Below are positions 15,192 to 21,581 of a stretch of 64,000 nt of DNA, one piece after another. The translations under genes and the position numbers were made by a program. Position 1 is the first letter of the stretch, and each line of letters opens with the position of its first letter. Under the pieces are notes generated by a model. It did no database searches, was not told the origin of the DNA, and saw nothing but the letters and a program-made list of their open reading frames with translations. This stretch comes from Verrucomicrobiota bacterium. GTDB lineage: Bacteria; Verrucomicrobiota; Verrucomicrobiia; Verrucomicrobiales; V1-33. The stretch is from positions 62,001 to 126,000 of the forward strand of contig QQNF01000002.1 of assembly GCA_003402705.1 (NCBI GenBank), read 5' to 3'.

Positions 15192-16625
15192 TCAGCGGGG
15201 CAGGGGAGAGTTAGGGAACTGCTGATTGAAGAGGGTTTTGAAGGTATTTTCCCCGGTGACGGGGGCGTTTTCGTTGACGAGGGCGGGGAGGATGCTGGAC
15301 CACCATGAGTCGTAGGCGGCGGCGAGTTCCTTGACGACGTCTGGGTGGGAGGAGGCGACGTTGGATTGTTCGCCTGGGTCTGCGGAGAGGTCGAAGAGTT
15401 GCCAGCCGGGTGTTTTTGGGGCGGTGCTGACGATTTTCCAGCGGGAGTTGCGGATGGCGCAGTTGTGGAATTTGGAGTCGGCGGCTTTACCGCGGGGCCA
15501 GCGGCCGACGTGGGTGACGAGGGTACGGTCGGGCCATGGGGCGGCGGGGTTTTCGAGGAGCGGGACGAGCGAGCGGCCTTCGATTTGTTTTTGGGCGGCA
15601 GGGGAGAGTGGGGCGGCGGCGATGGCGGCGAGGGTGGGGAAGACGTCGAGGTGTGCGGCTGGTGCGGAGATGTCGGCGGGGGAGATGGTGCCGGGCCAGC
15701 GCCAGAAGGAGGCGGCGCGGACACCGCCCTGCCATGGGGAGCCCTTGGTGCCGCGGAGACCGCCGGAGTGGGTGGGGATGCCGGCGGTGCCGCCGTTGTC
15801 GTTCATGAAGAGGACGAGGGTATTGCGTTCGAGACTGCGGTCGGCGAGCCACTGGAGGAGACGGCCGGTGTTGTCGTCGATGTTGGCGATCATGCCGAAG
15901 AATTTGGCGGCTTGCGGGGGGACCTTGTCCTTGTAGCGAGCCTCGTCTTCGGGGCGGACGTGGAGCGGGCCGTGTGGGGCGTTGGTGGCGATGTGGGCGA
16001 AGAAGGGTTGGGAGGGAGGGATGGATTCCATCCACTGCATGGCGGTGGAGAAGAAGACATCGGTGCAGTAGCCGGAGGTTTTTTCGAAGGTGCCGTTGTG
16101 GAGGATGAAGGGGCTGAAGTAGGAATTGCCGGGGGCGTCGCCGCAGGAGCCGGGGTAGGATTGGCCGATGCCGCCGGCTCCGTGGAAGAAGGATTCGGAG
16201 TAGCCGCGTTTGGCGGGCCAGTAGTCGGGTTGGTCGCCGAGGTGCCATTTGCCGAAGATGCCTGTGGCGTAGCCTGCGGCTTTGAGGGAGTCGGCGAGCG
16301 TGACGGCGGATGGGGCGAGGCGTTCGCGTTCCTCGATGGTGTGGGTGATTCCGTTGCGGAATTCGTGGCGGCCGGTGAGGAGGGCGGAGCGGGTGGGGGC
16401 GCAGGTGGGGCTGACCTGGAAGTCGGTGAAGCGGGCGCCTTCGCGGTGGAGACGGTCGAGGTTAGGAGTTTTGAGGATGGGATTGCCGTGGCAGGAGAGG
16501 TCGGCCCAGCCCTGATCGTCGGTGATGATGAGGATGATGTTGGGGCGGCGGCCGGCGAGCGGGGTGGCTGCGGAGAGGGAGGCTGGGGCAGCGAGGAAGA
16601 GGACGAGGGAGAGGAGGCGCAGCAT
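15192..16625 (-). CDS. exported sulfatase (arylsulfatase A family)
   Basis: The 477-residue protein has a signal peptide (MLRLLSLVLFLAAPASLSA) and then PNIILIITDDQGWADLSCHG, with metal-binding Asp36-Asp37. The catalytic motif CAPTRSALLTGR has Cys75 in C-x-P-x-R, the site converted to formylglycine. Further motifs are GIFGKWHLG, PFFAHIATNAPHGPL, VLFMNDNGGT and SPWQGGVRAASFWRWPG. It probably removes sulfate esters from polysaccharides in the periplasm or outside the cell. It needs a formylglycine-generating enzyme, which is not in this window. The start at 16625 was chosen for the signal peptide; an earlier ATG would add 35 residues encoded within the 3' end of the HtrA-like gene. Confidence 0.95.
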   Translation of the reverse strand: MLRLLSLVLFLAAPASLSAATPLAGRRPNIILIITDDQGWADLSCHGNPILKTPNLDRLHREGARFTDFQVSPTCAPTRSALLTGRHEFRNGITHTIEERERLAPSAVTLADSLKAAGYATGIFGKWHLGDQPDYWPAKRGYSESFFHGAGGIGQSYPGSCGDAPGNSYFSPFILHNGTFEKTSGYCTDVFFSTAMQWMESIPPSQPFFAHIATNAPHGPLHVRPEDEARYKDKVPPQAAKFFGMIANIDDNTGRLLQWLADRSLERNTLVLFMNDNGGTAGIPTHSGGLRGTKGSPWQGGVRAASFWRWPGTISPADISAPAAHLDVFPTLAAIAAAPLSPAAQKQIEGRSLVPLLENPAAPWPDRTLVTHVGRWPRGKAADSKFHNCAIRNSRWKIVSTAPKTPGWQLFDLSADPGEQSNVASSHPDVVKELAAAYDSWWSSILPALVNENAPVTGENTFKTLFNQQFPNSPLPR

Positions 16626-16687
16626 GCCTTTAGAGTAGGCGGCAGGCGTGGGGGGGCGGGGGGCCGCAAACGCGGCATGGGGAAGGG

Positions 16688-17018
16688 TCAGGGGGGCGTG
16701 GTGGTGGCGGTGGGGAGGAAGGGGAGCCATGCGTCGCGCTCGCGGGGGCGGCCGACGACGAGGAACCCGCCGGAGGGTGCGAGTTGGGCCATGAGATTGT
16801 GGAATGATTCTGGGGAGGTGATGGGTTGGACGTTGCGATGGGAGCTGTCGCTGACGTGGAGGATGGCGTCGCCCTTGTGGATGGAGGAGGCTAGAGGTGA
16901 GGCTGGGTCGACGGAATCGACGTGGACGCCGATGAGTTCTTCGAGGCCGAGGAGATTGCGTTCGTAGCGGCGGAGGGGGCGGACGGAGAGGCCGAGGACG
17001 GAGAGGGGTTCGCCGGGG
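16688..17018 (-). pseudogene. out-of-frame second PDZ domain of the HtrA-like protease
   Basis: Downstream of base 17018 the PDZ2 domain is continuous in the frame one base away from the protease. It reads PGEPLSVLGLSVRPLRRYER, LGLEELIGVHVDSVDPASPL, ASSIHKGDAILHVSDSS, ITSPESFHNLMAQLAPSGGF and LVVGRP, ending at TGA 16688-16690. This is a well-formed HtrA PDZ domain. Adding one C to the four-C run at 17015-17018 (on the coding strand) restores one frame from 18168 to 16688. The break may be a sequencing or assembly error in a homopolymer, a real mutation, or recoding. Confidence 0.85.
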
Positions 17019-18168
17019 AGTCTTTGGGGAGGGCCTTGTCGAAGTCGGCGACGGGGAGGGAGGTTTTGATGATTTCGGTGCCGCGTCTGACGGTCATGGT
17101 GATGGTGCTGCCGACTGGGTGATTGCGGACGGCGCGGCGGTATTCGCCTGTGGAGGTGACGCGGAGATTGTCGAGGGCCTCGATGATGTCGTCTTTGCGG
17201 AGGCCAGCGGATTCTGCTGGTGAGAGGCGAGCGACGCCGCGGACGATGACGGCTTCGGGTTCTGCGCCGTGCTGGTAGTAGTTTTCGGGCCAGTCGTCGA
17301 CGGTGAGGCCGAGGTAGGTGCGTGGGCGGGATTTGTGGAGGAGCCGGTCGAGGGCGTCTGCGAGGTCGTTGGAGGGGATGGCGAGGCCGTAGCCTTCAGC
17401 GGAGGCGTCGTCGTCTGGTCCCATGAGTTTGCGGGTGACCATGCCGATGATGTCGCCGGAGAGACTGACGAGCGGGCCGCCGGAGTTGCCGGGGTTGATG
17501 GTGCAGGTGGTCTGGAGGTAGGTGGTGTAGGTGTCGCTGAGGCGGCGGTCGCGTTTACTGATGATGCCGTGGGTGACGGTTTCGCTGAGATTGAAGGGAC
17601 TGCCGAGGGCGAGGACCATGTGGCCGGCGCGGACCTTGTCGGAGTCGGCGAGGCGGAGGGGAGAGAAGACCTCGTTAGGGGAGGCTGGGGTGACTTTGAG
17701 GAGGGCGAAGTCGAGTTGGTCGTCCTTGTCGATGAGGGTAGCGGAGCGAGGGGATTCCTCGCCGTGGAGGGTGACTTTGAGGGAATCGAGCCCGCCTTCG
17801 ATGACGTGCCAGTTGGTGATGATGTGGCCTTCTGGGGTGACGATGGCTCCTGAGCCGACGCCTGGTTCGCGGGATTCTGCGGATTCGGAGACTGGGGGTT
17901 GGCCTGGGCGGAGCGTGCGTTCGGTGACGGGGATGGAGCGCTCGACGTGGATGCTGACGACGCCTGGGAGGACGGCCTGGACGACGGAGGCGAGTTCGTC
18001 GTTGAGGGCTGAGGCGACGGGGATGCGGTTGAGGTCGATGCGGGGCGGGGAGGAGGCGGCGTCTGGGGGAGGGTTGAGAGGGATCGAGCGGCCGCGCCAT
18101 GCGTAGCCGGCGGTGGCGGCGGCGAGGACCGCGGCGGCGGAGATCCACGGGCGTGCGGAGGGCGGCAT
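16891..18168 (-). CDS. HtrA/DegP-like serine protease, frameshifted before PDZ2
   Basis: The N-terminus has a hydrophobic anchor or signal (AAAVLAAATAGYAW). The trypsin-like domain has a complete triad: His121 in NWHVIEGG, Asp153 in LDFALLKV and Ser229 in NPGNSGGPLV. PDZ1 covers about 285-370 (LGLTVDDWPENYY, RLSPAESAGLRKDDIIEALD). After Ser384 the reading frame leaves the family pattern and becomes Ser/Pro/Ala-rich, while PDZ2 continues in another frame down to 16688. The full product would have about 494 residues. It is a periplasmic quality-control protease by family. The gene starts ten bases after the stop of the upstream secreted-protein gene, and the sulfatase starts 62 bases after the restored stop. 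Confidence 0.88.
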   Translation of the reverse strand: MPPSARPWISAAAVLAAATAGYAWRGRSIPLNPPPDAASSPPRIDLNRIPVASALNDELASVVQAVLPGVVSIHVERSIPVTERTLRPGQPPVSESAESREPGVGSGAIVTPEGHIITNWHVIEGGLDSLKVTLHGEESPRSATLIDKDDQLDFALLKVTPASPNEVFSPLRLADSDKVRAGHMVLALGSPFNLSETVTHGIISKRDRRLSDTYTTYLQTTCTINPGNSGGPLVSLSGDIIGMVTRKLMGPDDDASAEGYGLAIPSNDLADALDRLLHKSRPRTYLGLTVDDWPENYYQHGAEPEAVIVRGVARLSPAESAGLRKDDIIEALDNLRVTSTGEYRRAVRNHPVGSTITMTVRRGTEIIKTSLPVADFDKALPKDSPANPSPSSASPSAPSAATNAISSASKNSSASTSIPSTQPHL

Positions 18169-18771: not shown

Positions 18772-19536
18772 TTATCCTCTGGCGACGGTGAGGACGGCGA
18801 CGGTTTGGGCGGCGCCTTTGTGTTTGAGGATGGCGGCGCAGGCGTTGGCGGTGGAGCCTGTGGTGAGGACATCGTCGATGAGGAGGATGGGTCTGCCGGT
18901 GGTGTGGCGGGCGGCGCGCCAGCGGAGGTCGAAGGCGGATTTGAGATTGAGGAGACGGTCTTCGCGGCGGAGGGCGGCCTGGGTGGAGGTGTAGCGGAGG
19001 CGGCGGAGGGCGTTGACGACGGGGAGGCCGGAGAGGGAGCTGAGGGAGTTGGCGAGTTCAGCGGACTGGTTGAATTCGCGTTCGCGGAGGCGGCGAGGGT
19101 GAAGGGGGACGGGGACGAGGATCCAGTCCTTGCGGGCGGCGATGCGAGGGTCGTTGAGGGCGTTGAGGAGGAGAGAGGCTAGGGGGAGGCGGAGGGCGAT
19201 GCGGCGGCCGTACTTGAAGTGGTGGATGGCGGCGCGGATGGGGCCGCGGCTCATGAAGGCGGCGACGGCGAAGGCGTAGTGCTGGGGTTGGCCCATGCAG
19301 TTGGGGCAGGTGAAGTCGTCGGCGATGGCGCCGGTGAATGGTTCGCAGCAGATGGCGCAGAACGGGCTGGTGATGGGGGAGAGGGAAGCGGAGCAGTCAT
19401 GGCAGAAGCGGGATTGAGCGAGGTTGGCGTCGAGCGGGGAGTCGCAGGCGGCGCAGTGGGCAGGCCAGACGAGATTGAGGGCGGCCATGTGCCATGGGGA
19501 CCAGAGGCCGGGGGCTGACAGGAGGCGGGAGGACAT
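18772..19536 (-). CDS. comF: ComF-family phosphoribosyltransferase-like protein
   Basis: The 254-residue protein has the ComF layout: an N-terminal zinc-ribbon region (CAACDSPLD, RFCHDC, CAICCEPF, CPNC) and a C-terminal type I phosphoribosyltransferase domain with the PRPP-binding motif ILLIDDVLTTGST. YTSTQAALRREDRLLNLKSAF is the typical ComF segment RxTxxQxxLxxxxRxxNxxxAF. In naturally competent bacteria ComF is a cytoplasmic factor for single-stranded DNA uptake; elsewhere its role is unclear. It starts one base after the stop of the ferredoxin gene (TGA, C, ATG), indicating tight coupling. A second ATG 16 codons in is an alternative start. Confidence 0.93.
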   Translation of the reverse strand: MSSRLLSAPGLWSPWHMAALNLVWPAHCAACDSPLDANLAQSRFCHDCSASLSPITSPFCAICCEPFTGAIADDFTCPNCMGQPQHYAFAVAAFMSRGPIRAAIHHFKYGRRIALRLPLASLLLNALNDPRIAARKDWILVPVPLHPRRLREREFNQSAELANSLSSLSGLPVVNALRRLRYTSTQAALRREDRLLNLKSAFDLRWRAARHTTGRPILLIDDVLTTGSTANACAAILKHKGAAQTVAVLTVARG

Positions 19537-20660: not shown

Positions 20661-21581
20661 TTACTTGCCGTAGACTTCTGCTTCGATGTACTGGTTCATG
20701 TCATCGATGTTGCGGCCATTGGACCAGAAGCGGACGTAGCGGGCTTTGATGCCTTTGACTGGCATGGCGCGGCCGTTGTTGGTTTCGACCCATGACTGGT
20801 CCTGGCCGACGCCGAATTCGGCGGAGTTGTCGAAGTCGTTGTTGAAGACGGTGGTGGCGTTTTTCATTTCGGGGTCGTCGGAGACTTGGACGATGACGTC
20901 CTTGTAGATGACGGCCTGTTTGTGGAAGTGCCAGAGCCAGACGAGCCAGATTTCCTTGGATTCGCCGAGGTCGATCTGGACCCAGTGTTTACCGGGCATG
21001 AGGTCGGCGAAGAAGCCGTCGTCGCCTTCCTTGTCGCCATCGGTGATGAGTTTGAGGGATTCGGCGTCGCCGGAGGGGAGCGGGGCTGGGTCGCTGGAGG
21101 TGACTGGTTTGCCCTTGGAGAGAAGGACGACGCCTTCTGGGGTCTGGACTTCGAGGGTTGGTTTGCCGCTCTTGTCGAGGTTGGGGGGAGGGTTGCTGTC
21201 CGGGAGCGGGGTGCCTGCGAAGAGCGGTTTAGGCATCACCGGTTTGATGGTGATGGCTGGGCCGGATGGGGCTGGTGAGGGCGCTGGGGCCGGGGTGGCT
21301 TCCGGGGCAGGCGCTGGAGTTGGAGTTGGCGCTGGCGCGGGAGTTGGAGTTGGCGCGGGAGTTGGAGTTGGGTCTGGAGCCTTGGGAGTTGGAGCCGGGG
21401 CAACTGCCGGTGTGGCTGGTGCCGTGGTCGTGCCGTAGATTGAGGGAGAGGCGGTTGCGCCGCCGGAGGAGGCGGAGGAGAGCGGGGCGAGGCCTGGGGC
21501 GGATTTGTCGCAGGCGGCGAGGGTGGCGAGAGCGACCGCGGAGAGGGCGGTGGCTGCGCGGGAAAGCGTCGATTTTTTCAT
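20661..21581 (-). CDS. lipoprotein with Pro-Thr-Ala linker and F5/8-type C (discoidin-like) domain
   Basis: The 306-residue protein has a lipobox (ATLAAC) after an MKKSTLSRAATALSAVALATL signal, so Cys24 is probably lipidated. Residues of about 55-105 are PTPAP repeats, likely a wall-spanning or surface linker. The C-terminal 150 residues (LKLITDGDKEGDDGFF, GKHWVQIDLGESKEIWLVWLWHF, VIVQVSDDPEMKNATTVFNN, ARYVRFWSNGRNI, each in part) match discoidin domains, which bind carbohydrate. It probably anchors or recognises polysaccharide at the cell surface. The start lies 30 bases after the stop of the Gfo/Idh oxidoreductase gene, suggesting one transcript. Confidence 0.87.
   Translation of the reverse strand: MKKSTLSRAATALSAVALATLAACDKSAPGLAPLSSASSGGATASPSIYGTTTAPATPAVAPAPTPKAPDPTPTPAPTPTPAPAPTPTPAPAPEATPAPAPSPAPSGPAITIKPVMPKPLFAGTPLPDSNPPPNLDKSGKPTLEVQTPEGVVLLSKGKPVTSSDPAPLPSGDAESLKLITDGDKEGDDGFFADLMPGKHWVQIDLGESKEIWLVWLWHFHKQAVIYKDVIVQVSDDPEMKNATTVFNNDFDNSAEFGVGQDQSWVETNNGRAMPVKGIKARYVRFWSNGRNIDDMNQYIEAEVYGK
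21313..21375. repeat. in-gene tandem repeat encoding PTPAP linker
   Basis: About three imperfect 18-bp units of the type GCGGGAGTTGGAGTTGGC run through this stretch on the plus strand. They encode the Thr/Pro/Ala linker of the lipoprotein. The near-identity of the units suggests recent slippage or recombination. Confidence 0.75.

Follow-up and report, generated by a model that had tools for sequence, protein, structure and literature searches.

A single-base frameshift displaces the second PDZ domain of an HtrA-type protease gene in one draft genome of an uncultured pond bacterium

Introduction

The window, the 64,000-nucleotide stretch of DNA analysed here, comes from an uncultured bacterium from a pond and contains an HtrA-type serine protease gene whose reading frame is lost between the first and the second PDZ domain. 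This locus raises the question of whether the split reflects a protease form with a single PDZ domain, a recoding event that produces two forms, a recent mutation or an error in the consensus sequence. An HtrA gene with a frameshift is an ordinary event in an already known protease family, and its overall importance is little. If the mutation is real, the loss of PDZ2, the second PDZ domain, would have been caught at its very start.

Results and Discussion

Domain organization of the protease gene

The open reading frame as it stands encodes 425 amino acids (Table 1). Its N-terminal segment, ISAAAVLAAATAGYAW, appears hydrophobic from its composition. The following domain matched Pfam Trypsin_2 (2.5e-26) and contained the triad motifs TNWHVI, LDFALL and GNSGGP, as found in a trypsin-like protease with a His-Asp-Ser triad; H121, D153 and S229 were invariant across the homologue alignment. 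At least one C-terminal PDZ domain was present, as residues 306-371 (PDZ1) matched Pfam PDZ_2 (3.7e-11). These motifs and matches agreed with an earlier note on this DNA, which had placed the triad and PDZ1 in one frame up to codon 384. The TIGR02037 score was 229 bits for the window protein and 249.8 bits for an intact relative; neither reached the cut-off of 416.2, indicating that the HtrA protein described here is a divergent member. The gene is a standard two-PDZ HtrA of the Do/DegP-DegQ type, encoding a putative envelope serine protease, with the frame shifted at codon 384. Compared with the Do/DegP-DegQ family (TIGR02037; PDB 6z05 and 3pv2), the protease triad and PDZ1 were the same and PDZ2 followed in the same order in the intact relatives, whereas the PDZ2 of the window genome was out of frame.

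Table 1. Features of the HtrA locus in the window.
Feature	Coordinates	Strand	Remarks
HtrA-type protease ORF as it stands	16891..18168	-	hydrophobic N-terminal segment, protease domain, PDZ1 and 41-residue out-of-frame tail
CCCC run, point of frame loss	17015..17018	-	five C in both same-genus relatives
PDZ2 coding stretch, displaced frame	16688..17014	-	ancestral stop TGA at 16690-16688
New tail of truncated product with premature TAG (16893-16891)	16891..17016	-	Ser/Pro/Ala-rich, 41 residues, low-complexity

From position 17014, the displaced frame reads GEPLSVLGLSVRPLRRYERN...PTATTTPP, a stretch of 108 residues that runs to the ancestral stop. Its identity to the C-terminus of the proteins from the intact relatives was 95-96%, and there the same region is the second PDZ_2/PDZ match within one protein; on its own, the displaced stretch matched Pfam PDZ_2 weakly (7.8e-4). 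The AlphaFold model of the displaced C-terminal domain, for which the input comprised three near-identical sequences only, showed a pLDDT of 54.5, too low a quality for a structure search. The earlier note had located PDZ2 in another frame after the C run, and the homology to the intact relatives substantiated this. It had also offered the 330-base open frame as evidence for PDZ2. This frame does run to 16688, but its openness is uninformative, as the third frame is also stop-free over 131 codons and an antisense open reading frame of 540 codons overlaps the stretch. Owing to its strongly C-rich composition, the coding strand has several open frames, and long open reading frames at this locus are thus no evidence of genes. 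Accordingly, PDZ2 is taken as genuine because of its homology and not because of the openness of its frame. The antisense frame lies at 15345-16967 on the plus strand and extends across the neighbouring sulfatase gene and the end of HtrA.

The first frame past the C run had been called low-complexity, and the new tail has precisely this character (Table 1). Its premature TAG hinges on a CTC to CTA change that is synonymous in the PDZ2 frame and private to the window genome. Since the stop of the tail comes from such a change, the tail is a by-product.

Comparison with homologous proteins

We compared the gene with its orthologues in two metagenome-assembled genomes of the same genus, also from ponds (JAIXPK010000424.1 and JAIXVE010000359.1, titled Verrucomicrobiaceae bacterium). 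The proteins were 97-98% identical to both over the first 384 residues, and the flanks were syntenic with both at approximately 95% nucleotide identity. In both relatives, HtrA occupied one uninterrupted frame (493 and 492 codons, respectively), with PDZ2 in the same reading frame as the protease domain; in the window gene, PDZ2 lay in the other frame after 17015. The difference was one base, as CCCCC was present in both relatives where the window has CCCC. The sequence and its alignment to the relatives confirmed the coordinates previously given for the four-C run. In six more same-genus or same-family homologues (L016-L021), a single frame likewise covered the protease domain, PDZ1 and a C-terminus resembling PDZ2 (6/6). 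A scan of genome contigs revealed no close relatives beyond the same two same-genus genomes, and its remaining matches were distant. As neither same-genus relative and none of the six other homologues compared was split, we consider the split to be private to the window genome. The earlier suggestion that one missing base explains everything holds relative to both close relatives; the two leading explanations discussed below differ in whether the cell itself or just the consensus lacks that base. The locus is a worked example of how a comparison of relatives separates a one-genome frameshift from recoding.

The earlier note had also raised the possibility that recoding makes both forms. A long and a short protein could then both arise at CUCCCCGG, either by programmed frameshifting or by transcriptional slippage. 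A PDZ2 frame that is retained and still looks selected would suit such a mechanism. However, the two same-genus relatives and all six same-family homologues need no shift to encode the long form, so there is no conserved recoding, and a direct reading of the zero-frame site, GAC UCC CCG, does not give an X XXY YYZ heptamer. RNA folding downstream of the site was not notably better than that of shuffled sequences (z-scores of 0.83 and -0.62). With no conservation, no recognised slippery heptamer and no notable RNA structure, programmed recoding was rejected, and recoding at the HtrA C run is considered very unlikely.

A single-PDZ form might instead be established and selected as such in this lineage. 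In another family of the order, the best matches were indeed natural single-PDZ HtrA proteins of about 390-420 amino acids. These proteins end just past PDZ1, without a second PDZ domain in another frame, whereas in the window gene a near-unchanged PDZ2 persists, the new tail is low-complexity and selection on PDZ2 shows no visible relaxation. The comparison of relatives suggested earlier spoke against a fixed short form too, as a single frame includes PDZ2 in both same-genus relatives and in the six other same-family homologues, and we regard an established short form as extremely improbable. Single-PDZ members such as DegS, AlgW, HhoA and the Helicobacter pylori HtrA without PDZ2 (PDB 5y28, which was among the best structure-sequence matches) likewise combine a protease domain with one PDZ domain. 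In the window product, in contrast, the one-PDZ state arises by frameshift and is accompanied by 41 unrelated residues. A single-PDZ HtrA annotation at this locus should not be counted as a new protease form.

Selection on the displaced frame and assembly quality

The codon changes found only in the window genome were mostly synonymous in the PDZ2 frame (six synonymous versus one non-synonymous, with the last codons excluded). Two further window-only non-synonymous codons were located at the extreme C-terminus, where TTPP replaces the TDSP of the relatives; this could hint at a slight relaxation, which is too little to count. In comparison with G003, pN and pS were 0.007 and 0.106 upstream of the shift (from codon 60) and similar downstream of it (0.013 and 0.112, last codons excluded). 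These similar values on either side and the mostly synonymous changes indicated that selection acted on the PDZ2 frame up to the very recent past, or continues to do so. The frameshift is therefore either very recent or a consensus error.

As a check for an assembly rich in errors throughout, a sample of approximately 98 kb of the window genome (G000) was aligned to the two same-genus relatives. Apart from the HtrA shift, this sample contained no single-base frame-changing gap that was flanked on each side by substitutions biased towards third codon positions. The remaining flagged frame-changing gaps were intergenic or at gene ends, such as that at 2529, which has a PpiD/SurA-like gene on one side and a TPR-like gene on the other (both named by motif only); the idea of a generally indel-ridden assembly was rejected on these grounds. 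The stretch G000:C4:20001-40000 (L067) was left out of the census, being without a match in the relatives. Nothing in either same-genus genome matched this 20 kb stretch, whereas the other stretches tested matched at approximately 90-96%; contamination or lineage-specific DNA is possible.

An error in the consensus or assembly, with an intact gene and a normal two-PDZ HtrA in the cell, is a serious contender, to which we assign somewhat less than an even chance. The shift sits in a C run, the PDZ2 frame is still under purifying selection, HtrA is unbroken in the relatives, and the genome is a fragmented 4.08 Mb draft of 128 contigs that is estimated to be 75% complete. On the other hand, four or five C residues make a short run, and such errors are rare in this assembly, as no second confirmed internal single-base coding indel was found in the approximately 98 kb. 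A local consensus error thereby becomes less likely, although its probability is not nil.

A possible recent mutation and its expected product

We consider it slightly more likely that the mutation is real and recent than that the consensus is in error. In this preferred reading, which we hold at just about an even chance, one C was very recently lost by slippage in the population sampled, and the run of five contracted to four in the window genome only. The simplest cause of the shift would be slippage within this short run, be it a cellular event or an artefact of the data. Against a real mutation, the retained downstream selection is equally expected from a consensus error, and homopolymers attract polymerase slippage and sequencing error alike.

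If the mutation is real, the product would consist of the protease domain, PDZ1 and the unrelated tail. In DegP, it is PDZ1-PDZ2' contacts that link trimers into cages (PMC11642142). Since cages need these contacts, the truncated product would probably be trimeric and would not form DegP-type cages. The expected outcome would be a trimer, either active or mis-regulated, that builds no cages, comparable to the solved HtrA structure without PDZ2 (5y28). More trypsin-like protease homologues were found in the window genome (C2, C15 and C16), and these might compensate for the truncated HtrA. A lineage-specific switch resembling phase variation is exceedingly unlikely; with such a switch, the C run would slip back and forth, and the population would alternate between an HtrA that has both PDZ domains and builds cages and a trimer with one PDZ domain.

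Neighbouring genes

The genes on either side of HtrA were named from sequence motifs only. Directly downstream, an arylsulfatase-like gene (15192-16730, minus strand) contains PNIILIITDDQGWAD and CAPTRSALLTG; its true start is probably near 16625, past the ancestral HtrA stop. Upstream, a ComF-like phosphoribosyltransferase gene (18772-19536, minus strand) has the same orientation as HtrA. We also found short GC-rich coding repeats of the GGCGCTGGAGTTGG type at 21290-21440, the copy number of which differs between the window and both relatives.
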